This document shows, one piece after another, positions 1 through 17,409 of a DNA stretch of 64,000 nucleotides (position 1 is its first letter; every line of letters starts with the position of its first letter). The position numbers were made by a program, and so were the translations under genes. The DNA comes from Pleomorphomonas sp. PLEO (GTDB taxonomy: Bacteria; Pseudomonadota; Alphaproteobacteria; Rhizobiales; Pleomorphomonadaceae). The stretch spans positions 4,152,001 through 4,216,000 of the forward strand of contig NZ_CP166625.1 in assembly GCF_041320595.1 (NCBI RefSeq), in the 5' to 3' direction. Under the pieces are notes generated by a model. That model saw only the letters and a program-made list of their open reading frames with translations, was not told the DNA's origin and made no database searches.

Positions 1-349
1 TCGACTTGGGATCTTCCGGCTTCCAACCGCGCCGGGCGGCGAGATCGCGGGAATAGCGCGAAGTGGAGGACTGGCTCGACGCACAGCCGATCGGCGAATG
101 CTGGATAACTACCGTGTCCTTGATGATGGTGGCGTTGGTGACCGCGATCTGCTCGGCGCACATCGACGCCTGCGAATAAGGGCTATTCAACTCGCACAGC
201 CGCTTGCCACCGGGGCCGCAATCGCGGCCACAGCCAAAGGTGAAGGCGGAATCCTTGGCCAGTTGGGAAGCAGGGCCATCCCATTGGGTTATGGTGCCGA
301 GGCGCTGGTCGCGCGTTTCGGCCTGCGGGGTGCGAAGATTGATCGGCAT
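1..349 (-). CDS. Nitrogenase component 1-like protein, N-terminal part (runs off left edge)
   Basis: Reading the minus strand from an ATG at 349 gives 116 open codons with no stop before the window edge, so only the N-terminus is visible. It carries a Cys-rich stretch (FGCGRDCG, then CELNSPYSQASMCAEQ) followed by IKDTVVIQHSPIGCASS. The last block aligns by eye with the NifD block IKDMIHISHGPVGC, and the two Cys 25 residues apart match the spacing of P-cluster ligands in component 1 of nitrogenases. The extreme N-terminus (RDQRLGTITQWDG) does not look like NifD, NifK, NifE or NifN. It recalls group-IV nitrogenase-like proteins such as the methylthio-alkane reductase MarD/MarK type. I therefore call the superfamily with confidence and leave the exact enzyme open. 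An AT-rich leader lies upstream (455-590). Confidence 0.72.
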   Translation of the reverse strand, partial: MPINLRTPQAETRDQRLGTITQWDGPASQLAKDSAFTFGCGRDCGPGGKRLCELNSPYSQASMCAEQIAVTNATIIKDTVVIQHSPIGCASSQSSTSRYSRDLAARRGWKPEDPKS

Positions 350-2228: not shown

Positions 2229-2524
2229 TGATCGCCCTCACTTGGCTACGTCCGCACATCCGCCTCCCGTCTCGAATGGATTTGCCCAACATTGCAAGAG
2301 CTTTACGCGCTCGCGATGTTGTTCATTCATACGGGATGAGGGTTGGCGTCTTCAAACCGAGGTGAAAGCCACACGCCTAATCGCGATCCAAGCGCTCGTT
2401 CGTTGATTCTCGTAACTTCTCGCGAATGGACCGATAGGCATACCTCTAATTGTATGAGCCTCTTGCGCGTCATAGTTTATTCCCGACCGCCTATATCTCC
2501 GGAAGTAGAGTTTGGAAGCTTGCC

Positions 2525-5500
2525 ATGGATTGGGATCTCACTCGCCTAAATCCCACAGGATTCGAACGTCTCGTTCGCGCCCTTTGTTTCCGATCATTCG
2601 GACCTGGAGGTACCGTGTTTTCTCCAGGTCCCGATGGAGGACGTGATTTTGTTTTCGAAGGAAAACTTGGAGGGTACGAATCCAAGGGATGGCAGGGATA
2701 CTTAGTTGTACAAGCAAAATTCAGAGAAAACGCTGGGCGACCAGATGATGTAGAATGGTTGATAAGGCAGCTGTCCGCTGAATTTAGAAAATATAAATCG
2801 AGTCACCCGGCCATACGAAAACCGGAATACTATATCCTCGCGACCAACATTTCTTTATCCGGTAGCGACGGGGTGGCGCCAAAAACAAAAAAGCTCCGCA
2901 CCGGTGGATACACGAAAATAGAGGACGCGCTCAAGGCATGGAAAGGAGAGTTTGGTGTCAAGGGGGTCGACGTTTGGTCGGGTGACAAGATTGTAGATTT
3001 CTTGGCGGATGCTCCCGGTATCAGGCAATCATATGCGGCCTGGATCACTCCGGGTGACGTATTGAACAAGATCCTGCAGAGCGCAAATACACTACGGCCG
3101 GAGTTCAAACACGTCGCCGGCCGCTCTCTTAAGAATATGTTGCACAGAGATCAGTTCGTTCGCCTAAAGGATGCCGGTAGTGTCGGCGACGCCCAAATCC
3201 GAACTAGCCAAATTTTTATAGATCTACCCCTTCCATCATCACGGCCGGGGCTGGGATCAGAGATGCAACCTTACGAGCACTTATCTAACTGCGCCGTGGC
3301 GCGGCTTGTCGACAGAGCAAGAGAAAAGCTCGACCCAGAAACCCTAGCCGACGAAGAGGACACTATCGGCACAAGTGGGCCGAGTAGAAGTAGAATAGTT
3401 TTGGTCGGTGGCCCTGGGCAAGGTAAATCAACAGCTACTTTGTTTTTGACACAAATTTTCCGTGCAACGCTCCTAGAAGCAGACCCAGCCACACGACGAG
3501 ATCATAATGTAAAGCGGCTCGTTCCAGAAATTCTAAAGCGAGCAGAAGCAGAGGGGATCCCGCGATCTATCCCGCACAGGTACCCTGTTCACATTTCACT
3601 GCCACGGTTTGCCGATCGCATCAGCCAACAACGCCAACTTGAGCGCGATATTCCCTCGCTGCTTTCATATATAGCATCCGAATTCGCGCTATCGTCAGAC
3701 CAAGACATTACTAAAGACGACTTACGAGCCTGGATAGAACTCCATCCTTGGCTATTGGTACTAGACGGCCTAGATGAAGTACCTCCCACTGGCGAGCGTC
3801 CGGCCATTCTCGACGCGATCTCGCAGTTCTTTACAGAAATCGCCGCCGCGAACGCGGACATATTAACGATCGTTACCACTCGCCCACAAGGATATAATAA
3901 AGACCTTGATCCCGATCTGTGGGAGCACTGGCGGTTGGCCGAGCTGAATCGCGACGAAGCACTGAAGTATGCGAAAGCGCTGGGCGAGGCGAGATATCCA
4001 GATGATAAACATCGTCGAGAGGACGTGGAGGCGATGCTAAACGAAGCTTCCCGTCAACCTGCAACTGCCCGATTAATGATTTCTCCGTTACAGGTTACTA
4101 TACTCCATTTCATCATTGACACAGGAGGAGGTGTACCCACTGCCCGTTGGACACTCTTCAACGAATATTTTGAGGTGCTAAAGCGCCGCGAGCGAGCAAA
4201 GGGTGGCCAGACGCAGAGAATTCTTGAACGTCATTTGAGTCACCTCGGGCCAATACATCACCGAGCGGGGCTTGTGCTCCAAACAGATAGCGAGCAACAA
4301 GGCGGGGCAGGAGGTAAATTGTCTCACGCTCGGTTCCGCGATTTAGTCCATAAATATTTAGTCTCTGAAGGTTTCTCCACTGCAGAAGTTGAAACTCGCG
4401 TAAAAGAACTTATGGAGCTTGCGCTCAATCGACTTGTGCTCTTGTCAACACAAGAAGAGGAACAAATCCAATTTGACGTCCGCTCTCTTCAGGAATTTAT
4501 GGCTGCGGCAGCCCTAACATCTGGTGACGAAGCACTAATGGAAGAGCGACTGGCTTATATCGCCGGAAAAGCGCATTGGAGACATGTTTTCTTGATCGCA
4601 GCCAGCCGCTGCTTCGCCGACGATAGCTTCCACTACAGGCGCGCGACAATTGTCAACATTCCTCGCCAAATGGACTCTGCGGAGCCCGATTTACTCGTAA
4701 AGAACGGAGCGAAACTCGCCCTAGAGCTTATTTCGGATGGCATAGGTCTAGATCACCCCCACTCTAGACGGCCGTTACTGCAACACAGTATGGATTTACT
4801 TTCTTTAGGTCCCGATAGTTATGATGATCGCCTCGTAACAGTGTGGGATTCCACTACGCTCGACCTAGCGGAAGCCTTGCTTCGTGAACGCATTAAAGAT
4901 GGCTCTTCCACTGGAGCTTCGGCTGCCTGGAAGCTGCTGTTCAGAATGACTCGCGAGCATAGCGAGTGGGCGACCACACTGATTGTGAGTATGTGGCCGA
5001 AAGACACGCAGGCCTCTCTACTCGCGCTTAGCCAAGCAACGGCCCCTCTAGATAATGCGCAACTTATTCAGCTCGCAACTCTGACAGTTGCGTCGGCAGG
5101 ACCAAATTGTAAAACCACTTTACGGGATTTCTCGCAGTCACTACGACATTTTCAGGATGAGTCCGAACGCAACTCTCATTCCGATTTATGCAGTCTGTTG
5201 CCCACGGGGCTTGGCTTTGACCATTCAAGACGCTTAATAAAAGTTCTCGGGATAGAGAGTCCCTTTGCAACGTTGCAAGTTCTACTAAACGCAGCGGACT
5301 CTTTTAGAGTTTACAATCGAACTTACCTCGATAGAAATCTTTGGTGCGCGTTCCAGGCCGCAGCGTCATTTATCGACCGACCGAGCAAAAAGTCTCTTCA
5401 CGATGCGGCGACCATTATCGCACTTCATTCGTTTGAAACAGCCCGATCGTTCCTTTGGTTGTTACCCTGGCCATTGGCGACTCTGATCTGCGAGTCTCAG

Positions 5501-6523
5501 GACCCAGCAGCTCTTTTGAAAATCGCCAACGAAGTAAGAGACGGTGAGAGAGCGGGATTAAAGGAGTGGAAGTCTGCTGAGCGCCGCTGGCTTGAAATAG
5601 GAGTTACTCAAGCGGATCTTGCGTATTTAGAGTCTGGTCGATTCTTTGGGCGCGATGTGGCAACGGTCGGAGCCCCCCCGATTTTGTCAGTTTCTATTTC
5701 TAACAATGCCGAAGCGCTAAATACCTCAGATCGGTTAGCCGACGCGGCCTCAAAGGTGACGCACCCGCTTATAAACAAGCACCTCATCAACGCGGCTCAT
5801 ACGGCGCTTCTAGGCGCACCGCCCCACAGTTGCAAATCGCCGGAACTAGCCCGAAGGCTTTTGCACTTGCTTGTGCAATGTAGTTACATTCGCGCTGCGG
5901 ATCTTTCTATGTTCGATTTGCAGGTTTTTCAGGATCCATCGCTTCTCGCTGAATTGGTCGAATTGATAAAGCGGTGCGACAGTGACCAGACCCTGGATGT
6001 TGATCTCGGTGCGTTAGTTGCCCTGTTTAATATCTCAAATACAAGAGAGCTGATCCAACTAATATTGTTGTCAATTAGGTCTTCTTCTCAGGAAGACATT
6101 AGAAGCGCAATTTCCAAGCTCGACTCCGGCGCCTTTCTGTATCAACCAACAGACGAGAGACGTGTAAGAGAATCTGTCGCGCTTTTACGGATGATTTCTG
6201 GGACTTCTAGTGACGTTTGTCGAGATTGCGAAGATCTTCTTTCAAACGAAGATCGAGATACGGTAAGTGAGGTTGCGATACGCATACTCAACGGCGATTT
6301 AATCGGCTCAGATGCTAGAATTTCAGTTTTGGTTTTTATTATGCGCCAGCTTCGTGAGAAGTCGAGCAACGTTAGTAGTCGCCTAGCTGAACCTCTAAGG
6401 AAGGCGTTGGATACGCGCCGCTCAGAACTTCATACTAGATCAGTGTGGATAGATCACCTCCGCCTGCCCTCCGACAGCTTTTCTTGTCTTCTTCCTTCTC
6501 AAGAAGGAAGCCCTAAGCATTAA
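2525..6523 (+). CDS. NACHT-domain NTPase with N-terminal Mrr-like nuclease domain (putative anti-phage NLR)
   Basis: The product has 1332 residues. Residues about 10-120 look like a PD-(D/E)XK nuclease of the Mrr/DUF4420 kind, with FERLVRALCF, GPDGGRDF (D41) and VVQAKF (Q63-x-K65). Residues about 285-520 form a NACHT/STAND ATPase, with Walker A GGPGQGKST (295-303), Walker B LLVLDGLDE (D414), then TTRPQGY. The remaining 800 residues are Leu-rich and helical without clear repeats, as in the sensor arms of bacterial NLRs. Avs and related NACHT proteins use such an arm to sense phage proteins and oligomerise to activate the N-terminal effector, here presumably DNA cleavage. I chose the ATG at 2525 because GGAAG lies about 9 bases upstream; the in-frame ATG at 2450 has no RBS. 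GC is visibly lower than in the flanks, and the gene abuts tRNA-Gly, so transfer is likely. The exact Avs-type class is not determined. Confidence 0.82.
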   Translation: MDWDLTRLNPTGFERLVRALCFRSFGPGGTVFSPGPDGGRDFVFEGKLGGYESKGWQGYLVVQAKFRENAGRPDDVEWLIRQLSAEFRKYKSSHPAIRKPEYYILATNISLSGSDGVAPKTKKLRTGGYTKIEDALKAWKGEFGVKGVDVWSGDKIVDFLADAPGIRQSYAAWITPGDVLNKILQSANTLRPEFKHVAGRSLKNMLHRDQFVRLKDAGSVGDAQIRTSQIFIDLPLPSSRPGLGSEMQPYEHLSNCAVARLVDRAREKLDPETLADEEDTIGTSGPSRSRIVLVGGPGQGKSTATLFLTQIFRATLLEADPATRRDHNVKRLVPEILKRAEAEGIPRSIPHRYPVHISLPRFADRISQQRQLERDIPSLLSYIASEFALSSDQDITKDDLRAWIELHPWLLVLDGLDEVPPTGERPAILDAISQFFTEIAAANADILTIVTTRPQGYNKDLDPDLWEHWRLAELNRDEALKYAKALGEARYPDDKHRREDVEAMLNEASRQPATARLMISPLQVTILHFIIDTGGGVPTARWTLFNEYFEVLKRRERAKGGQTQRILERHLSHLGPIHHRAGLVLQTDSEQQGGAGGKLSHARFRDLVHKYLVSEGFSTAEVETRVKELMELALNRLVLLSTQEEEQIQFDVRSLQEFMAAAALTSGDEALMEERLAYIAGKAHWRHVFLIAASRCFADDSFHYRRATIVNIPRQMDSAEPDLLVKNGAKLALELISDGIGLDHPHSRRPLLQHSMDLLSLGPDSYDDRLVTVWDSTTLDLAEALLRERIKDGSSTGASAAWKLLFRMTREHSEWATTLIVSMWPKDTQASLLALSQATAPLDNAQLIQLATLTVASAGPNCKTTLRDFSQSLRHFQDESERNSHSDLCSLLPTGLGFDHSRRLIKVLGIESPFATLQVLLNAADSFRVYNRTYLDRNLWCAFQAAASFIDRPSKKSLHDAATIIALHSFETARSFLWLLPWPLATLICESQDPAALLKIANEVRDGERAGLKEWKSAERRWLEIGVTQADLAYLESGRFFGRDVATVGAPPILSVSISNNAEALNTSDRLADAASKVTHPLINKHLINAAHTALLGAPPHSCKSPELARRLLHLLVQCSYIRAADLSMFDLQVFQDPSLLAELVELIKRCDSDQTLDVDLGALVALFNISNTRELIQLILLSIRSSSQEDIRSAISKLDSGAFLYQPTDERRVRESVALLRMISGTSSDVCRDCEDLLSNEDRDTVSEVAIRILNGDLIGSDARISVLVFIMRQLREKSSNVSSRLAEPLRKALDTRRSELHTRSVWIDHLRLPSDSFSCLLPSQEGSPKH

Positions 6524-6629
6524 AGGAAGGACGTCTCCGGTGACCAGAATCTAAAGAACCTAGAACGCCACACGCTCAGACCAGCCTAGCGCTGCGCTGT
6601 AGGTGAAAACGTTTAAAGGATGTGAAATC

Positions 6630-6703
6630 TGGAGCGGGTAGAGGGAATCGAACCCTCGTATTCAGCTTGGAAGGCTGCTGCTCTACCATTGAGCTACACC
6701 CGC
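6630..6703 (-). tRNA. tRNA-Gly (anticodon TCC)
   Basis: The minus strand folds as a full cloverleaf. Acceptor GCGGGTG pairs with TACCCGC, the anticodon stem-loop has CTTCCAA centred on TCC, and the T-arm is GAGGGTTCGATTCCCTC. Discriminator T is followed by an encoded CCA (6632-6630). The NACHT gene ends about 100 bases from its 3' end, the usual side for island insertion. Confidence 0.97.
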
Positions 6704-6741: not shown

Positions 6742-7779
6742 TCAACGGCGCAACACGTCCGCCAGCGCTGAGATCATCGCATGAACCACAGCCGGATCGG
6801 CGCGGCGGCCGGTGTGATTGAGGCGGATGAGGCGCTCGGCCCCAGCCCCGACGCCCAGGGAGAATTCCGGGTCGGTGGCTCTGAGCTGGTCGAGGAGGGG
6901 CGCGATGTCGACATCGGCCGGCACCGCGAAAGTCGTGACGAGATGCGACGCCTCCTCCGGCCCTGCCCACGGCTTCAGCCCGAGCGCCTGGAGGCCATCG
7001 CGGGCCGCGGTGGCGGCCTCAGTGTGGCGATCAATGATGCTGTCGATCCCCTCGGCCTCGACGCGGTCGAGCGCGGCGGCGAGCGCCCAGAGTTCCAGCG
7101 GCGGCGGTGTGCCCGGCAGGGCGCCCCTGCCAGCATCGAGCCAGAGCCGCTTCTGGTCGAGGAGCGACAGGGTCGAGGTCGCAGGCGCGTCGGGACGGTC
7201 GATCTCGGCCCAGGCGCGCTTGCTGACCGAGACGGCGGAGATGCCGGCTGGCCCGGCCAGCGCCTTCTGCGGTCCGATAACGACGACATCTGCCCCCATG
7301 GCATCGGCGGCGAAGGAATGCCCGCCCAGCGAAGCAACCGCGTCGACGACGGTGAGCATGTCGCGCTCACGGGCAAGGCGCAGGATGGCCTCCAGCGGAT
7401 TGCAGATGCCGCTCGCCGATTCCGCATGCACCAGGGCCAGCAACTTGGCATCGGGATGGGCATCGAGCGTCGCCGCCACCGCCCGCGTGCTGACCGGCCG
7501 TGCCGCTTCGGCGCGAATTTCAACGACGCTGGCGCCGGCCCGCCGCAGCCAACGGCCGAACCAGACGCCATAAGGGCTGGTCACGATGTTGATGACCTTG
7601 AAGCCCGGCCGGCCGAGGCTGACCGCCACCGCTTCGAGCGCCACCACCGCCTCGGCCTGCACGAGCAACACGTCGCCCGACGTACCGATCAGCCGGGCGA
7701 GGCGGTCGGCGAGACCGGCGACACGATCGGCCGGGAACGCCGGCGGGTCGAGGAGGCTGGCGGGATCAAAGTCGTTCAT
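6742..7779 (-). CDS. PLP-dependent class V aminotransferase-like protein
   Basis: This 345-residue protein has the fold-type I PLP pattern of alanine-glyoxylate/serine-pyruvate aminotransferases. It shows a cofactor Asp in VVDAVASLGG (D146) and the Schiff-base lysine in VIGPQKALAGPAG (K172). It has no signal peptide and should be cytoplasmic. Its start overlaps the stop of the ABC ATPase gene by four bases (ATGA), so it is the last gene of a five-gene minus-strand operon: permease, permease, ATPase, ATPase, aminotransferase. The context suggests it processes an amino-acid-like or peptide-like compound brought in by that transporter. The substrate cannot be read from the sequence. The C-terminal SLGVGAG...IRLNHTG block is normal for the family. 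Confidence 0.85.
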   Translation of the reverse strand: MNDFDPASLLDPPAFPADRVAGLADRLARLIGTSGDVLLVQAEAVVALEAVAVSLGRPGFKVINIVTSPYGVWFGRWLRRAGASVVEIRAEAARPVSTRAVAATLDAHPDAKLLALVHAESASGICNPLEAILRLARERDMLTVVDAVASLGGHSFAADAMGADVVVIGPQKALAGPAGISAVSVSKRAWAEIDRPDAPATSTLSLLDQKRLWLDAGRGALPGTPPPLELWALAAALDRVEAEGIDSIIDRHTEAATAARDGLQALGLKPWAGPEEASHLVTTFAVPADVDIAPLLDQLRATDPEFSLGVGAGAERLIRLNHTGRRADPAVVHAMISALADVLRR

Positions 7780-8561
7780 GCTGGCGGCTCTCCCTTGAGG
7801 CGCGGCACGGCGCCGATCAGATCTTTCAGGACGTCGGAGGACGGCGCGGTGATAACGCTGGCGGCCGGCCCTTGCTCGACGATGCGACCGGCGGCCATCA
7901 CCGCGATGCGATGGGAGACGGCGCGCACCACGGCGAGGTCGTGCGAAATGAAGAGATAGCCGACGCCGGTTTCCCGCTGCAGGTCGACCAACAGCTCCAG
8001 TATACGGCCGCGCACCGAAACGTCGAGCGCCGACACCGCTTCGTCGAGGACGATGAGGCGCGGCCCGACGGCAATGGCGCGGGCGATGGCCACCCGCTGG
8101 CGCTGACCGCCAGAGATGTCCCGGATCGAGCGCCCGACCAAGCCGGACGACAGGCCGACCCGGTCGATCAGCCGGGCGACTTCGGCGGCGCGCTCCGCCT
8201 TGGCAACCACGGCGTGAATGCGCAGCGCGTCGGCAATGACACCGCTCACCGTGGCGCGCGGGTTGAAGGCGGCGAGCGGGTCCTGGAACACCATCTGCAT
8301 GTGCCGCCGGGCGGCGCGCAGGCGGCCACCGCCGAGCGCCAGCCAGTCGTCGCCCATGAAGGCGATGGAACCGCTCTCCGGCGCCATGAGGCGGGTTAGC
8401 ACGCGCGCCAGCGTCGACTTGCCGCAGCCGGAGCTGCCGACGAGCCCCAGCGTCTCGCCGGGTGCGATGGCCAGCGACACGCCGTCGAGTGCGACGACGC
8501 GGCGCCCGCCACTTACAAAGGTTTGGCGCAGATCGCGGGCGATGAGCAGCGGCTCGCTCAT
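7776..8561 (-). CDS. ABC transporter ATP-binding protein, DppF/OppF type
   Basis: The product has 261 residues with all motifs of an active ABC ATPase: Walker A GSSGCGKST, Q-loop MVFQDPLAAFNPR, signature ISGGQRQR, Walker B LIVLDEAVSALD and H-loop ISHDL. The Q-loop wording and length point to the peptide/nickel/opine family (Dpp, Opp, Nik). It would be the second of two different nucleotide-binding subunits of the transporter encoded upstream. It overlaps both neighbours by four bases, which indicates translational coupling. No binding-protein gene is present in this operon. Confidence 0.93.
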   Translation of the reverse strand: MSEPLLIARDLRQTFVSGGRRVVALDGVSLAIAPGETLGLVGSSGCGKSTLARVLTRLMAPESGSIAFMGDDWLALGGGRLRAARRHMQMVFQDPLAAFNPRATVSGVIADALRIHAVVAKAERAAEVARLIDRVGLSSGLVGRSIRDISGGQRQRVAIARAIAVGPRLIVLDEAVSALDVSVRGRILELLVDLQRETGVGYLFISHDLAVVRAVSHRIAVMAAGRIVEQGPAASVITAPSSDVLKDLIGAVPRLKGEPPA

Positions 8562-9340
8562 GATGCCTCCCCGACGAGAGGCGGCGTTGCCAGATCGATA
8601 TGCGCGGCGATCAGCGCCGCCGTCTCGGCCGCCTTGGGCGCGGCGACCACCTCGGCGGCCGGCCCCAGCTCGACGAGACGGCCGGCGGCCATCACGGCGA
8701 CGCGGTCAGCGATGCCGGAGGCCAGCGCCAGATCGTGGGTGACGAACACCAGCGTCATGTTTTCGGCGCGCACCAGTTCGACGAGGAGTTCGACGATCGC
8801 CGCCTGCACCACCACGTCGAGCGCCGAGGTGACCTCGTCGGCGATCAGCAGGCGCGGCCGGGCGGCGATGGCGGCGGCGATCGCCACCCGCTGCCGTTGG
8901 CCGCCGGAGAGCTGATGGGGGAAGGCGCGTGCGATGCGCTCCGGCTCCGGCAGGTGAACGCGGGCGAGAAGGCGCATGGCTTCCGCATCGGCCTCGCGAC
9001 GGCTGAGACCGAGATGGCGGCGCGCGCCCTCCCCAACCTGTTCGCCGATGGACAGCACCGGATTGAGGCTGGAGCCGGGATCCTGGAAGACATAGCCGAT
9101 GTCGCGGCCAGCGCGCGGCGTGCCATCGAGATCGGGCCAGCGGAGGGTGCCGGCGACCTCTGTCCGCTCGGGCAGCAGGTCGGCGATGGCGCGGGCCAGC
9201 GTCGACTTGCCGGAGCCGCTCTCGCCGATGATCGCCAGGATTTCGCCGGCTTCGATATCGAGGGACACACCGGAGAGGGCCGATGCGGTGGCACGGCGAT
9301 AGGTGACGGTGAGATCGGCGATGCGAGCGAGCGTCGTCAT
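8558..9340 (-). CDS. ABC transporter ATP-binding protein, DppD/OppD type
   Basis: A 260-residue ATPase starts at the ATG at 9340, which overlaps the stop of the permease gene (ATGA). A longer in-frame extension exists upstream but only reads through the permease gene. Motifs are Walker A GESGSGKST, Q-loop YVFQDPGSSLNPVL, signature LSGGQRQR, Walker B LLIADEVTSALD and H-loop THDL. It pairs with the ATPase at 7776-8561 to power the same importer. The dual-ATPase arrangement is standard for oligopeptide, nickel and opine systems. Confidence 0.93.
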   Translation of the reverse strand: MTTLARIADLTVTYRRATASALSGVSLDIEAGEILAIIGESGSGKSTLARAIADLLPERTEVAGTLRWPDLDGTPRAGRDIGYVFQDPGSSLNPVLSIGEQVGEGARRHLGLSRREADAEAMRLLARVHLPEPERIARAFPHQLSGGQRQRVAIAAAIAARPRLLIADEVTSALDVVVQAAIVELLVELVRAENMTLVFVTHDLALASGIADRVAVMAAGRLVELGPAAEVVAAPKAAETAALIAAHIDLATPPLVGEAS

Positions 9341-10164
9341 GACCGCCCTCCCCGGCCCAGCGCTTCGCCGGCCGCCTCGCTGACCAGGTAGACGCCGAGC
9401 ACCGCCACCACGAGGCCGATGCCGGGGATCACCGACAGGAAGGGCGCGGCGCGCAGCACGTTGCGTCCTTCTGCGATCATCGAGCCCCAGGTGACGACGT
9501 TGGGGTCGCCGAGACCCAGGAAGGACAGCGCGGCTTCGGTGAGGATGGCCGCCGCGACGATCACCGCCGCCAGCGCCAGCACCGGCGGCAGCGCGTTGGG
9601 CAATATCTCTTTGAACGCGATTTCCAGCGGATGCATGCCGATGACGCGGGCGGCGGCGACGTAGTCGCGCTCGCGGATGGACAGCACTTCGGCCCGAACG
9701 AGGCGGGCCGGCTGCGCCCATGAGGAAAGCGCGATGGCAATGATGACGGTGCCGAGCGAGCCGCCGGCCACCGACACGAAGGCCAGCGCCAACAGGAAGC
9801 CCGGCACGATCTGGAAGGCATCGACCACGCGCATCAGCGCTTCGTCGACCAGCCGACCGGCAAAGCCGGCGATGGTGCCGACCACCGACCCGAGCAGCAC
9901 CGAGGCGGCCGCCGCCGCGATGCCGACCACCAGCGAGGTGCGGGCGCCATGAAGCAGACCGGCCAGCACGCCGCGGCCGAGCCGATCGGTGCCGAACGGC
10001 AGCGCCGGGTCGGTAAAGGGTGCCAGCAGCGCCGGGCCGGCGATGCTGAGGGGATCGCCGGGGGATATCCACGGGGCGAGCAGCGCGGCGGCGGCGATGA
10101 TGGACAGCAGTGCGACGCCGATGGCGCCCGTCGGGCTGGAGAGCAGCCGGCGGAGAAAGCTCAT
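9337..10164 (-). CDS. ABC transporter permease, DppC type
   Basis: This 275-residue integral membrane protein has an N-terminal segment (GAIGVALLSIIAAAALLAP) followed by about five more hydrophobic helices. It has the DppC-type sequence FGTDRLGRGVLAGLLHGART and the EAA coupling loop YVAAARVIGMHPLEIAFKEI. It forms the channel with the DppB-type partner at 10161-11150, with four-base overlaps on both sides. The substrate is inferred only as peptide-, opine- or nickel-like from family membership. Confidence 0.92.
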   Translation of the reverse strand: MSFLRRLLSSPTGAIGVALLSIIAAAALLAPWISPGDPLSIAGPALLAPFTDPALPFGTDRLGRGVLAGLLHGARTSLVVGIAAAAASVLLGSVVGTIAGFAGRLVDEALMRVVDAFQIVPGFLLALAFVSVAGGSLGTVIIAIALSSWAQPARLVRAEVLSIRERDYVAAARVIGMHPLEIAFKEILPNALPPVLALAAVIVAAAILTEAALSFLGLGDPNVVTWGSMIAEGRNVLRAAPFLSVIPGIGLVVAVLGVYLVSEAAGEALGRGGRS

Positions 10165-11150
10165 GCCGAGGTCTCCGAAGCGCCAATGCGCGGATCAAGG
10201 ACGGCGTAGAGCAGATCGACAACAAGATTGACGAGGATCACCAGCACCGCCGACGTCAGGATGATGCCGATCAACAGCGGCGCATCGCGGCCGGCCACCG
10301 CCTCCTGGGCCAGCCGTCCGAAGCCGGGAATGGCGAAGACGCTCTCGATGACCACCGAGCCGCCCAGCATGCCGGCCGATTGCAATCCAAGCACGGTGAT
10401 CAGCGGCAACAGCGCCGCCCGCGCGACGTGCCGCCAGATGATGCGGCGACGGGTGAGCCCCTTGGCACGCGCCGCCAGTATGAAGTCCTGCCGCCAGATC
10501 TCAGCCATGGCGGTGCGCATCACCCGGAGAAACAAGGCAAGATAGATGAAGCCGAGGGCGGCGACCGGCAGCGCCAGATGGCGGGCGATGTCGAGGCCAC
10601 GGGCAAGGCCGTGCTTGCCGGAGGCGATGGTCTCGATGCCGGCGATCGGCAGCCATCTGAGCGAAACCGAAAAGATCAGCACCAGCACGAGCCCCAGCCA
10701 GAAACCGGGGATGGCGTAGAGCGTCAGCGCGCCGATCGACAAGGCACGGTCGCGGAAGGAGCCCGGCCGGCTGCCGGCAACGACGCCCAAGAGCGAGCCG
10801 AGGCCGAAGGACAAGGCGGTGGCCGACCCCATCAGCAGCAGCGTGGTCGGCAGACGCTCGAAAATGAGATCCTTGACCGGCCGCTCGAAGGCCACCGACC
10901 AGCCGAGGTCGAGCCGGCCGAGCGCGGCGACATAGAGCAACAGGCGGGAGACAAGCGATTGATCGAGCCCATACTGGGCGCGCAATCCGGCGGCCAGCGC
11001 CGCGTCGCCACCGCCTGCCGAGAGCAGATAGGCGTCGACGGCGTCGCCCGGCGCGGCCTCCAGCAGCAAGAAAGTGGCGACCACGACGATCAGCAGCACA
11101 GGAATGGCGCTGAACGCCCGCCGCCTGACGAGGATCAGGGCGCGATGCAA
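10161..11150 (-). CDS. ABC transporter permease, DppB type
   Basis: This 329-residue permease is the first gene of the minus-strand operon. The N-terminal helix (FSAIPVLLIVVVATFLLLEA), the periplasmic loop with APGDAVDAYL and YGLDQSLVSR, and the EAA loop FILAARAKGLTRRRIIWRHV are typical of DppB/NikB permeases. Six hydrophobic segments are visible. No solute-binding protein gene precedes it; the upstream intergenic region holds only a dispersed repeat. An orphan peptide-binding protein at 34382-35986 could serve it, but that link is speculative. Confidence 0.92.
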   Translation of the reverse strand: MHRALILVRRRAFSAIPVLLIVVVATFLLLEAAPGDAVDAYLLSAGGGDAALAAGLRAQYGLDQSLVSRLLLYVAALGRLDLGWSVAFERPVKDLIFERLPTTLLLMGSATALSFGLGSLLGVVAGSRPGSFRDRALSIGALTLYAIPGFWLGLVLVLIFSVSLRWLPIAGIETIASGKHGLARGLDIARHLALPVAALGFIYLALFLRVMRTAMAEIWRQDFILAARAKGLTRRRIIWRHVARAALLPLITVLGLQSAGMLGGSVVIESVFAIPGFGRLAQEAVAGRDAPLLIGIILTSAVLVILVNLVVDLLYAVLDPRIGASETSA

Positions 11151-12635: not shown

Positions 12636-12774
12636 GCTCTTCCTACGGGGAAGGGAACGATTTCAGTACAGCCAACAATCTCGCCCTGAAGCATACCTTT
12701 CTACTGGAGGCTTCTCAATTATTTCAATTGTGTTAGCGTAGACCAACGCCGAATTTATTCCATAAAAGATCAAA

Positions 12775-13698
12775 ATGTGCAATTCATTTATAACAACAAT
12801 TATTATGTACTTCTCGACAATAAGTCTATGTTTTTCTATGGAACCAAATAAGAATGAACTTTCGGCTATGTCATTCCAGACAATAAGGCATATCACAGCC
12901 GATGCGCTCAATCCGTTCTTAGCGAGCATCGGCCAATTTCAAGTTGTTTCATTTGGTACAGCCCCTCGAGATCCGCACATTGACCATAGAAATGATAAGA
13001 TACTTGTGCGTATCGGAGATTCAAGGCTGTCGCCTGTCTCTGGTGTATATAGCAATTGTACAGCGAATTCTGATATTAGAACAATAATTTGCGACGCAAG
13101 GATCGTGGACGACATAATAGATGATTTTCATTTAGATTTGGGTTCAAATAGTCTTGAATTATACAGGACATTAATATTAAGACTAATTCTAGCGCATGAA
13201 CTAGGGCATATCATTCTAAAGCACGGATTCGCTGCATATCATGGTGATGAAACAGGCTTTTCTGTATTTCGCTATATGAAATATAGCAAGGAGCTAGATG
13301 CGGATAAATTTGCGGTAAAATTGATAGACTCCGCAAGACTAGACTTTAATGCGCAGTATGGCGTGATTTCTGATATTTTGAATTCAGTAATCTCAAAGAA
13401 CCTGTGTCCAGAAACATTTCCAAACTGGTGTCCTTGTCCTGGTTACTCAGATCCGACTCTGTGCAGCAAGATTCCGATAGGTCCTGGATTACCCGTTTAC
13501 AGCGGCGAGAGTTTTCGCATTGAGCTGAAGGGCACACATCCGGACTTCTTGGTTCGCTTTGCCCGATTTTTGATTCTGTCAAAATCCAAGGCTGCTAGGA
13601 TAATGTACGCAAAAGATGCCCGGTTTATAATCGATAACACGTTTATAAATTCAGGCATCTATTTGGAGTCGCTATCAATTCTGGATAGTTCAAAATAG
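12775..13698 (+). CDS. Putative exported zinc metalloprotease (HELGH)
   Basis: The product has 307 residues. A hydrophobic N-terminus (FITTIIMYFSTISLCFS, residues 5-21) looks like a signal peptide or anchor. The zincin motif HELGH is at 141-145 inside LILRLILAHELGHIILKH, and ELDAD at 173-177 supplies a likely third zinc ligand, as in M48-like and gluzincin peptidases. Several Cys in the second half (NLCPETFPNWCPCPGY...LCSK) suggest disulfides or metal binding in the periplasm. I cannot name a family beyond this. The DNA is strikingly AT-rich compared with both flanks, and codon use is atypical. It is followed at 76 bases by a papain-like protease gene of the same composition, so the two probably form one transferred module. 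Confidence 0.75.
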   Translation: MCNSFITTIIMYFSTISLCFSMEPNKNELSAMSFQTIRHITADALNPFLASIGQFQVVSFGTAPRDPHIDHRNDKILVRIGDSRLSPVSGVYSNCTANSDIRTIICDARIVDDIIDDFHLDLGSNSLELYRTLILRLILAHELGHIILKHGFAAYHGDETGFSVFRYMKYSKELDADKFAVKLIDSARLDFNAQYGVISDILNSVISKNLCPETFPNWCPCPGYSDPTLCSKIPIGPGLPVYSGESFRIELKGTHPDFLVRFARFLILSKSKAARIMYAKDARFIIDNTFINSGIYLESLSILDSSK

Positions 13699-13774
13699 TT
13701 ATATTTTTTCTTTTCCAAATTCTGAGGGCGTGTTAGTTACTTCATAAGCATCGATTGGATTTGGGGCCGACATT

Positions 13775-14671
13775 ATGGATCTCAATCGCAGAGCTGCACT
13801 CATACTTGGCGGCCTATCAGTCGCAGAATTATTTACGAAACAAAGTAGAGCAGATAACAACTCGCTTACTCAGCAAAACCTTGGATTTGGATGGATAAGA
13901 GATCTTCCAGATCCCCAGGACAGCCTACTTCAGTCCCCATCCTTTGGTGAGACAGCAAAGCGACCGAAGCTAATTGATCTTTCCCCCAAATTTCCCAAGC
14001 CGTATGACCAAATGCGACTTGGAAGCTGTACAGCTAATGCTATAGCGGCAGCTGTTCAGTACGCGCGAAAAATTCATGACAAGCCTGTTGATTTCACGCC
14101 GTCGCGTCTTTTTATATATTATGAGGCCAGAAAGATAATCGGAAATGTCTACGTCGACAGCGGCTCGCGAATAAGAGACGGAATCAAATCCGTCGCATCA
14201 ATTGGTGTGCCGCCAGAAGACATGTGGCCTTATGATGGGATTTCAGGAGATCGGACGACACATGTTTTCCCAACGGGAGCTCGTTCTACCATTGAACCGC
14301 CCAAGGCAGTTCTAGATGCTGCTCAAAAGTATAAAGCGATTTCCTATGCGCCCCTGAAGCAAGATGCGGTTACCTTAGAGAGTTGCTTAGCATCTGGGTA
14401 TCCATTCATCTTTGGATTTTCTGTTTTTAGTAATTTTCGCTATGATACAAAGCTCCTAAAGACACCAACTTCAGATGACACAACGACAAACTCCGGCCAT
14501 GCAGTTTTGGCAGTAGGATATAACCAAGAAAAACGTACTTTTAAAATTCGAAATTCTTGGGGCATCAACTCAAATAAAAACGGATATTTTGATATGGATT
14601 ACGATTACGTACTAAGCTCAGGTTTTTCTAGTGATTTTTGGGTTCTGTACCAAACGCTAGGATTTTATTGA
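13775..14671 (+). CDS. Exported papain-like (C1A) cysteine peptidase
   Basis: The product has 298 residues. The start MDLNRRAALILGGLSVAELF resembles a Tat or Sec signal peptide. The mature part shows the papain order of catalytic residues: oxyanion Gln and nucleophile in YDQMRLGSCTANA (Q79, C85), His in SGHAVLAVGYN (H242), and Asn in IRNSWG (N260). The length is that of a compact bacterial C1A enzyme without a long inhibitory propeptide. It is AT-rich like the metalloprotease gene just upstream, and the pair ends beside tRNA-Thr. The pairing suggests joint processing of an extracellular or periplasmic target, but no substrate is visible. Catalysis itself is well supported. Confidence 0.88.
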   Translation: MDLNRRAALILGGLSVAELFTKQSRADNNSLTQQNLGFGWIRDLPDPQDSLLQSPSFGETAKRPKLIDLSPKFPKPYDQMRLGSCTANAIAAAVQYARKIHDKPVDFTPSRLFIYYEARKIIGNVYVDSGSRIRDGIKSVASIGVPPEDMWPYDGISGDRTTHVFPTGARSTIEPPKAVLDAAQKYKAISYAPLKQDAVTLESCLASGYPFIFGFSVFSNFRYDTKLLKTPTSDDTTTNSGHAVLAVGYNQEKRTFKIRNSWGINSNKNGYFDMDYDYVLSSGFSSDFWVLYQTLGFY

Positions 14672-14910
14672 CGTTAACTATGTATAATATACAAGTAAAT
14701 AAAACTCAATAGCACTCATCAATGATATAACGACATTGATAAAATTGGAAACTAGCCTAGGTTTTGTCATTTTATCTTGAAAGTGACGCACCTTCTTTTT
14801 CAACAGTCGGTCCCCAACCTTTGGTCTACAGATTGAAGGCGCTGACGGGAAGAAATTTGTCCCCAACCCCGCGTTTGGGCAATGCCTGTCTGGCACATCA
14901 GCCGAGAAAA

Positions 14911-16407: not shown

Positions 16408-17409
16408 ATGAGCAAGTCATGGATGGTTCGTGCTGAGCGCAACGGCAGGCTATTTGACGTCTTTAAGCAAAGATCATTGGTCGCCATCGGATGGCCTGCG
16501 CTCGGGGACATTTCCGAAGCAAAGACCCGCAAGACGATCAGTGATGCTTTTTCGCGAGCCTACCCCGGAAGCAAAGCCCAAAGCCAAGCGATGGCCGCGG
16601 GGCAGCTCCATCGCTTTGTCAATGAGATGACCATCGGCGACATGGTTGTGACTTATGACCCCTCTCGCCGGGCCTATCTCGTCGGAGAGATTTCCAGCGC
16701 GTATCGACACGATCAATCGGCTGATCCAGAGGATACTCACGTTCGGTCGGTAAGATGGGACGGTGAGGTCAGCCGCGACCTTCTGTCCGTCGAAAGCAGA
16801 AATAGCCTCGGATCAATCTCAACTCTGTTTCGCCTTTCAACTGAGGTCTCTGGAGAACTCAAGAAAGCTCTGTCAGGTAATGCAACGCCTTCTGTGGACG
16901 GAGCAACCCCGGTAAGCGAGGCGGCGGAAGAAGATGTTTTCGAAAACATGGCGAGCCGAGCGCATGAATTCATCAAGGATAAGGTCAACGCTCTGAACTG
17001 GGATGACATGCAGGAGCTCGTGGCTGGCCTTCTTCGCTCACTCGGCTACAAGACAAGGGTTTCGGATAATGGCCCCGATCGCGGCAAGGATATCGTTGCC
17101 TCGCCGGACGGATTTGGCTTTGAGTCACCGCGTATTGTGGTCGAGGTCAAACATCGAAAAGGCGCCATGGGCGCACCGGATGTTCGCAGCTTTCTCGGTG
17201 GTCGTCATCCACAGGACAAGGGTCTTTATGTCAGCACCGGCGGATTCACGCGGGAAGCGCGTTACGAAGCTGAGCGGGCCAACATTCCCACGGCCCTGAT
17301 GGACCTCGACGATCTCGTGAAAAGCCTTCTCGAACAATATGATAAGCTCGACCTTGAGACACAGCAGCTTATTCCGCTGAAGCGCATTTTTGTTCCGGCC
17401 TGGAACTGA
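16408..17409 (+). CDS. Mrr-type restriction endonuclease with EVE/PUA-like N-terminal domain
   Basis: This 333-residue protein has two parts. Residues 1-150 (WMVRAERNGRLFDVF, LVAIGWPALGDIS, GDMVVTYDPSRRAYLVGEI, then HVRSVRW) look like the EVE/PUA-like module often fused to Mrr nucleases. Such modules commonly read modified bases. Residues about 195-310 are an Mrr_cat domain: NWDDMQELVAGLLRSLGYKT, GPDRGKDI (D224), and VVEVKHR (E246-x-K248), the D...E-x-K active site. It should be a stand-alone, possibly modification-dependent DNA endonuclease, since no methylase or partner is nearby. It lies just 3' of tRNA-Tyr and just before an IS3 remnant, which indicates mobility. AAGGTGG precedes the start. 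Confidence 0.85.
   Translation: MSKSWMVRAERNGRLFDVFKQRSLVAIGWPALGDISEAKTRKTISDAFSRAYPGSKAQSQAMAAGQLHRFVNEMTIGDMVVTYDPSRRAYLVGEISSAYRHDQSADPEDTHVRSVRWDGEVSRDLLSVESRNSLGSISTLFRLSTEVSGELKKALSGNATPSVDGATPVSEAAEEDVFENMASRAHEFIKDKVNALNWDDMQELVAGLLRSLGYKTRVSDNGPDRGKDIVASPDGFGFESPRIVVEVKHRKGAMGAPDVRSFLGGRHPQDKGLYVSTGGFTREARYEAERANIPTALMDLDDLVKSLLEQYDKLDLETQQLIPLKRIFVPAWN

Follow-up and report, generated by a model that had tools for sequence, protein, structure and literature searches.

Animal NOD-like receptors (NLRs) carry a CARD or PYD domain at the N-terminus and leucine-rich repeats at the C-terminus. In bacteria, the clade 6 proteins bNACHT25 and bNACHT32 consist of an N-terminal PD-(D/E)XK DNase, a central NACHT domain, and a helical C-terminus with an NCH1 domain. 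Their defence requires the nuclease active site, and DNA is degraded on infection (PMC12169576). Avs1-Avs5 (AVAST) are STAND-type NTPases with an N-terminal effector, a nuclease in Avs1-4, and a C-terminal sensor (PMC12931631). STAND proteins with an Mrr_cat N-terminus and C-terminal repeats are found in the P4 anti-phage hotspot (Rousset et al., PMC9122126). Here, we describe a single gene in a 64,000-nucleotide stretch of the Pleomorphomonas sp. PLEO genome (contig NZ_CP166625.1, positions 4,152,001-4,216,000; hereafter the window). Its product appears to combine a relative of human inflammasome sensors with a DNA-cutting domain, and we consider it likely to be a nucleotide-gated, probably abortive anti-phage nuclease.

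The gene is a frame of 1,332 codons without interruption (Table 1). Homologue alignments begin at the ATG at 2525, and an upstream TTG at 2450 could add 25 residues. A search of the organism's own genome with the protein returned only the protein itself. No family in Pfam, NCBIfam or PADLOC matches it from end to end. PDC-S73, a candidate defence model of PADLOC, was rejected because its match (E 2.4e-6) is limited to the nuclease part and covers positions 1-163 of 752. A preliminary description of the locus had read the gene as a single-gene NACHT NLR with an Mrr-like nuclease and a base composition unlike both flanks. The former remains the best reading, based on the NLR-like predicted fold of residues 1-740 and an invariant nuclease motif. 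The latter is borne out by a GC content of 50.3% vs 62.0% for the window, 66-67% at 1001-2250 and 67-73% at 6751-11000, and by a third-position GC of 0.47 vs 0.84 in the neighbouring aminotransferase gene.

The N-terminal domain was examined in a 26-row family alignment, two rows of which are cut short before the motif. D37, Q63 and K65 occur in all 24 rows with letters there and position 41 is always acidic (D in 13, E in 11), so the D41...Q63-x-K65 motif lies where it had first been placed. Pfam Mrr_cat matches residues 7-84 with 22.0 bits (cut-off 21). In an AlphaFold2 model, the elements follow the order helix, strand 42-47, strand 57-65, helix, strand, helix, strand, with D41 immediately preceding one strand and Q63-x-K65 closing the next. 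This placement of a catalytic D ... (D/E/Q)-x-K motif, together with this order of core elements, is what is expected of PD-(D/E)XK nucleases, and we infer that the domain has nuclease activity. The Q-x-K variant had been taken as a sign of novelty, which we do not uphold; Q-x-K in place of E-x-K is not in itself unusual in nucleases of this type. A second Mrr_cat protein of the window (16408-17409; E 1.2e-23, also matching NA-iREase1), which adjoins tRNA-Tyr, served as a yardstick for the motif. The domain profile placed GPDGGRD...QAK on its GPDRGKD...EVK, which is the right motif register.

The central part has the NTPase motifs of a NACHT domain. K301 is present in 26 of 26 rows, and D414, D417 and E418 in 25 of 25, confirming the Walker A motif at 295-303 and the Walker B motif at D414. 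Pfam NACHT scores below threshold on the protein (15.3 vs a cut-off of 26.7). An AlphaFold2 model of residues 1-740, built from 26 sequences, has a mean predicted local distance difference test (pLDDT) score of 83. In a Foldseek search of the PDB with this model, chains of NLRC4, NLRP2, NOD2 and NLRP9 lead (E from 4e-7), with NLRP3 following from rank 12 (E 1.8e-6) and Avs3 at rank 32 (E 3.3e-5). A family profile compared with PDB sequences also found NLRC4 best (E 1.8e-4, over about 60 residues), with adenylate kinases close behind (E 2.8e-4 and 9e-4). Four matches at E ≤ 0.001 came from a viral structure library: an NLR-like phage protein (E 1.4e-7), an uncharacterised protein, replication factor C and an unnamed entry. 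The invariant motifs and the NLR fold matches thus point to a NACHT NTPase at the centre, bearing Walker A and Walker B/acidic motifs as in the bNACHT proteins. The protein differs from the animal NLRs in having a nuclease in place of CARD or PYD, and a helical C-terminus in place of leucine-rich repeats.

The preliminary description had also compared the protein with NACHT/STAND phage sensors of the Avs kind. The NACHT part of that comparison stands and the Avs part does not. PADLOC includes Avs models, and none of the PADLOC families matched by the window protein (two at E ≤ 1) or by 11 family members (seven at E ≤ 0.01) is named Avs. Avs membership was rejected on this ground and because Avs3 ranks so far behind the animal NLRs. 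Its predicted fold places the protein among NACHT-type bacterial NLRs and not with Avs.

Sequence conservation sets the C-terminal region apart. It had been taken as a sensor of about 800 residues, a figure that we correct to about 630: since residues 481-700 match the NTPase core in conservation, they belong to the NACHT module. Identity to the closest relative, a protein of the same order (genome G691; 49% overall), is 57% for residues 1-175, 59% for 176-285, 70% for 286-480 and 75% for 481-700, vs 38% for 701-1050 and 29% for 1051-1332. For the copy on a Variovorax plasmid, the same four parts give 55, 43, 53 and 59%, vs 30 and 30% in the C-terminus. The divergence of the C-terminus is roughly twice that of the remainder of the protein. 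As a single-sequence query, residues 691-1332 detected 10 of the 43 other family rows at E ≤ 0.01. An AlphaFold2 model of residues 640-1332 is almost wholly helical (mean pLDDT 66), and its PDB matches have E-values of 2e-3 or worse; many of these are HEAT-type helical repeat proteins. The model suggests a helical, solenoid-like C-terminus, which we assign to no named repeat family.

The C-terminus also varies in length. Among the closer relatives, frames measured from stop to stop span 745 to about 1,430 residues, an upstream extension being included in some. Those of 745-1,136 residues are all from Actinomycetota, plasmid and chromosomal, barring the split L025 and the contig-end loci L028, L102 and L107. 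Copies on Rhodococcus and Gordonia plasmids have annotated lengths of about 713 (L021, 5995-8136), 909 (L017, 5409-8138) and 914 residues (L020, 6001-8745); the first stops near the NACHT module and the other two keep just a short C-terminus. The pattern of divergence fits a sensor under changing selection, a role that the C-terminus may well have. The Rhizobium homologue L025 (9905-13946) consists of two overlapping frames of 742 and 676 residues and is probably decayed.

Table 1. Features of the NACHT gene and its site, in window coordinates.
Feature	Position	Strand	Basis
Nuclease-NACHT-helical sensor protein, single gene	2525..6523	+	1,332 residues plus stop
Mrr-like (PD-(D/E)XK type) nuclease domain (putative), residues 1-170	2525..3034	+	Pfam Mrr_cat, model element order
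Catalytic motif D37-G-G-R-[D/E]41 ... Q63-x-K65	2633..2719	+	24/24 alignment rows
NACHT module, residues about 286-700, NTPase plus helical and winged-helix parts	3380..4624	+	Foldseek to NLRC4, NOD2, NLRP3; region identity
Walker A GGPGQGKST, residues 295-303	3407..3433	+	Alignment
Walker B and acidic D-G-L-D-E, residues 409-418	3749..3778	+	Alignment
Fast-evolving all-helical C-terminus, probable sensor, residues 701-1332	4625..6520	+	Model, region identities
Variable segment, other DNA in same-genus relatives	2350..6629		Comparison of genus loci
tRNA-Gly (TCC), border of variable site	6630..6703	-	tRNA call, genus comparison

Models and region identities together thus give a tripartite protein of effector, NACHT and C-terminus, the last with a putative sensing role. 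We liken it to bNACHT25 and bNACHT32 by their published description and not by sequence. The order of nuclease, NACHT and helical C-terminus is shared. Their C-terminal domain is described as NCH1; no C-terminal Pfam family matches the window protein at E ≤ 1. The P4-hotspot proteins, likewise compared by description, share the combination of Mrr_cat and STAND parts and the anti-phage hotspot setting, the window family having a subgroup in the P2 hotspot. They differ in that the window gene is chromosomal, belongs to another bacterial group and encodes a protein 28% identical to the E. coli family copy.

The family is sparse and widespread. Counts given here include the window's own genome wherever it is part of the searched set. 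Matches occur in 14 of 398 genomes of the phylum (E ≤ 0.001) and in 6 of 397 of the order (E ≤ 1e-20); in the genus, the window's genome is the only one of 14 with the gene. Relatives are found in 31 of 72,556 plasmid records, 16 of them non-mobilizable, 11 mobilizable and 4 conjugative. Single-sequence scans of the genome_contigs and viral_contigs collections found no relative; alignment-based scans gave at least 78 loci in the former, many of them matching the NACHT core only, and at least eight in the latter. L108 and L043, which give the same match, are apparently one sequence. In a quick tree built on the NACHT part of 41 members (omitting L107, L102, the second half of L025, and G691), the window protein groups with the Variovorax plasmid copy, followed by three other copies from the same phylum. 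The tree also holds members from Actinomycetota, Bacillota, Chloroflexota, Cyanobacteriota, Spirochaetota and Bacteroidota. On related NACHT cores, the N-terminus is exchanged for a Cap4 nuclease (L036), NNH5 (L038) or HNH_2 (L042). The swapping of N-terminal domains on a shared switch is typical of such immune receptors. A similar exchange is described for other STAND proteins (PMC8195603).

The genomic context of relatives connects the family to defence. Two viral contigs (L103 and L106) have the family gene flanked by a phage portal gene on one side and a P2-type replication gene A on the other. A distant search with L018 found a relative in 3 of 5,426 E. coli genomes; when L103 and L018 were used as queries for near-identical copies in E. 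coli genomes, nothing was found. Two of the E. coli copies were examined, and both lie between the portal gene and the replication endonuclease of a P2-like prophage, which in strain H2 has decayed with the NACHT gene intact. Over residues 3-740, the E. coli and window proteins share 28% identity. The gpA-gpQ interval of P2-like phages is a hotspot with anti-phage systems (Rousset et al., PMC9122126). With relatives in an anti-phage hotspot, the window protein is therefore most likely a sensor of infection that destroys DNA on viral attack. A scan of neighbouring genes covered 126 of 138 selected frames at 17 loci (all eight frames of G557 and four of eight of G691 fell outside it), with 25 of 61 PADLOC families and 25 of 146 Pfam families listed. 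Among the matches listed are JetABC (Wadjet) beside L027, DruE/DruF (Druantia) near L025, and two type I restriction proteins from PADLOC, and four phage integrases and three resolvases from Pfam. A Lit-family phage exclusion gene lies 2.6 kb from the Klebsiella plasmid copy L018. The earlier label "probably anti-phage" thus gains support from relatives, through the P2-prophage hotspot and two copies beside defence genes, the activity itself being putative. In L106, a PIN_12 domain gene (8257-9318) adjoins the family gene within the portal-replication interval of the P2-like phage.

By analogy to bNACHT25 and bNACHT32, the closest experimental model known to us, we propose for the window protein a mechanism of sensing through the C-terminus, NACHT assembly and nuclease activation. 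At rest, a nucleotide-bound NACHT switch would keep the N-terminal DNA nuclease inactive. The C-terminal helical region would recognise either a component of the phage or a host protein that infection has altered. An exchange of nucleotide would then allow the NACHT modules to assemble as a ring or other oligomer, bringing the nuclease domains together. The active nuclease would cut phage and host DNA and halt the infection, probably at the expense of the cell.

Several observations weigh against an anti-phage nuclease. The nuclease assignment, made from sequence, is marginal, with Mrr_cat one bit above its cut-off. Profiles alone are a weak guide, because at E ≤ 0.01 Mrr_cat matches one of 11 family members, the window protein, and NACHT eight of the 11, the window protein not among them. 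Pfam NACHT run across the whole genome missed the window gene and gave one sub-threshold place elsewhere. The domain profile found nothing among PDB sequences at E ≤ 1, and its match to the second Mrr_cat protein has a probability of only 6% (E 0.006; 0.7% and E 0.08 for one unrelated control). The Foldseek search with residues 1-740 is no test of the nuclease fold, because the matched NLRs have no nuclease. Among the 50 Foldseek matches listed, which come without aligned ranges, the template modeling score by query length is at most 0.38, and the relation to animal NLRs is therefore remote. As to context, the two E. coli copies seem to belong to a single prophage lineage, and all four hotspot copies fall in one subgroup, whose identity to the window protein is about 28-31%. 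The neighbour counts serve as context and not as a statistic, because no control set stands behind them. Of ten nearby window proteins compared with Pfam, the sole possible defence gene lies 10 kb away and encodes the Mrr_cat protein at 16408. The NACHT gene is absent from all 50,697 phage records searched, and literature searches turned up no functional data on any family member.

One alternative is that the family chiefly guards mobile elements against one another, by plasmid or prophage exclusion and the destruction of incoming plasmids or rival prophages. The 31 plasmid records and the copies within P2-like phages speak for it, as does the neighbouring JetABC, Wadjet being an anti-plasmid system. 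Chromosomal copies exist, the window's included, and the general architecture equals that of anti-phage bNACHT25; we regard this alternative as improbable, and it overlaps with the anti-phage reading. A regulated nuclease or cell-death switch serving host physiology, for example by controlling a domesticated element or DNA repair, is very unlikely. The CARD-NLR-like LypABC of Caulobacter controls release of gene transfer agents (PMC13236601), and NLR-like proteins can therefore be co-opted. Against such a role, matches are lacking in 13 of 14 genomes of the genus and, at E ≤ 1e-20, in 391 of 397 of the order, the base composition is foreign and relatives occupy hotspots. There is equally little chance that the N-terminus is a catalytically dead binding domain with some other output: inactive nuclease-like domains are known beside NACHT (Pfam NA-iREase1, by its family name) and the Mrr_cat score is weak, but D37, an acidic residue 41, Q63 and K65 are kept in every row that reaches them.

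An anti-phage nuclease of this kind is already known, and the family may already equal one of the clades in the classification of bacterial NACHT proteins that Kibby et al. 2023 reportedly provide. Our literature searches, with Kibby et al. 2023 and Gao et al. 2022 outside their scope, recognised no paper describing this exact family. The present analysis adds a nuclease-type bacterial NLR family found in six phyla and unnamed in the 2023 PADLOC models. A trigger differing from the known ones is plausible. More specifically, and with considerable doubt, we suggest an uncharacterised branch of nuclease-NACHT receptors in Pseudomonadota, Actinomycetota, Bacillota, Chloroflexota, Spirochaetota and Bacteroidota, whose long, shortened or nearly absent helical C-terminus possibly senses something other than the triggers of Avs (terminase, portal) or bNACHT25 (through DnaJ). 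Because a conserved effector and switch are paired with a helical C-terminus that changes rapidly, what a bacterial NLR senses can be tested directly, and the E. coli P2-like prophage copies make the family testable in standard laboratory strains.

The gene occupies a variable site in the genus. The site was compared in 9 of the 13 other genomes, taken at the aminotransferase locus. Its left border is a stretch recurring in the genus (window about 609-2349) and its right border, tRNA-Gly, is kept in all nine loci; both borders are present in six. In these six, the NACHT gene is replaced by 0.9 to 3.7 kb of other DNA, and the site therefore exchanges cargo. Proteins of the replacement segments include a HicB-like antitoxin (L122), DUF535 and TetR proteins (L128), a methyltransferase (L121) and a hydrolase (L125); a DUF2971 protein (L127) comes from a seventh locus, truncated where its contig ends. 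We also considered an integrated element flanked by direct repeats at tRNA-Gly and rejected it, as no att-like repeat was found. The 24 bases at the 3´ end of the tRNA have one exact genome-wide match, which is the tRNA itself, and one with two mismatches. Direct repeats of the tRNA of at least 14 bases, sought in the same orientation, are absent from 101 kb. No other frame of at least 100 residues lies wholly inside 2350-6629, and integrases were not sought further out.

Within the left border, a stretch of about 370 bases (about 605-998) occurs again some 35 kb upstream and is found several times at short spacing in same-genus relatives; its minus strand, by eye, encodes a small protein of about 50 residues. 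Two overlapping minus-strand frames at 1022-2228 recur in the genus. They have no Pfam match and weak PHROG matches, one of them to a replication initiation family. Further along the window, a region of low GC (12700-14900; about 0.37-0.47) encodes M48-like and papain-like (Peptidase_C1) proteins, adjoins tRNA-Thr and looks like another acquired island. At the opposite end, in window positions 1-349 and the DNA upstream (L111, 13053-18349), a nitrogenase-like cluster finishes at the window's left edge. Judged by eye on their translations, its frames are NifH-like, radical SAM/NifB-like and NifX-like, with two that are NifD/K-like.

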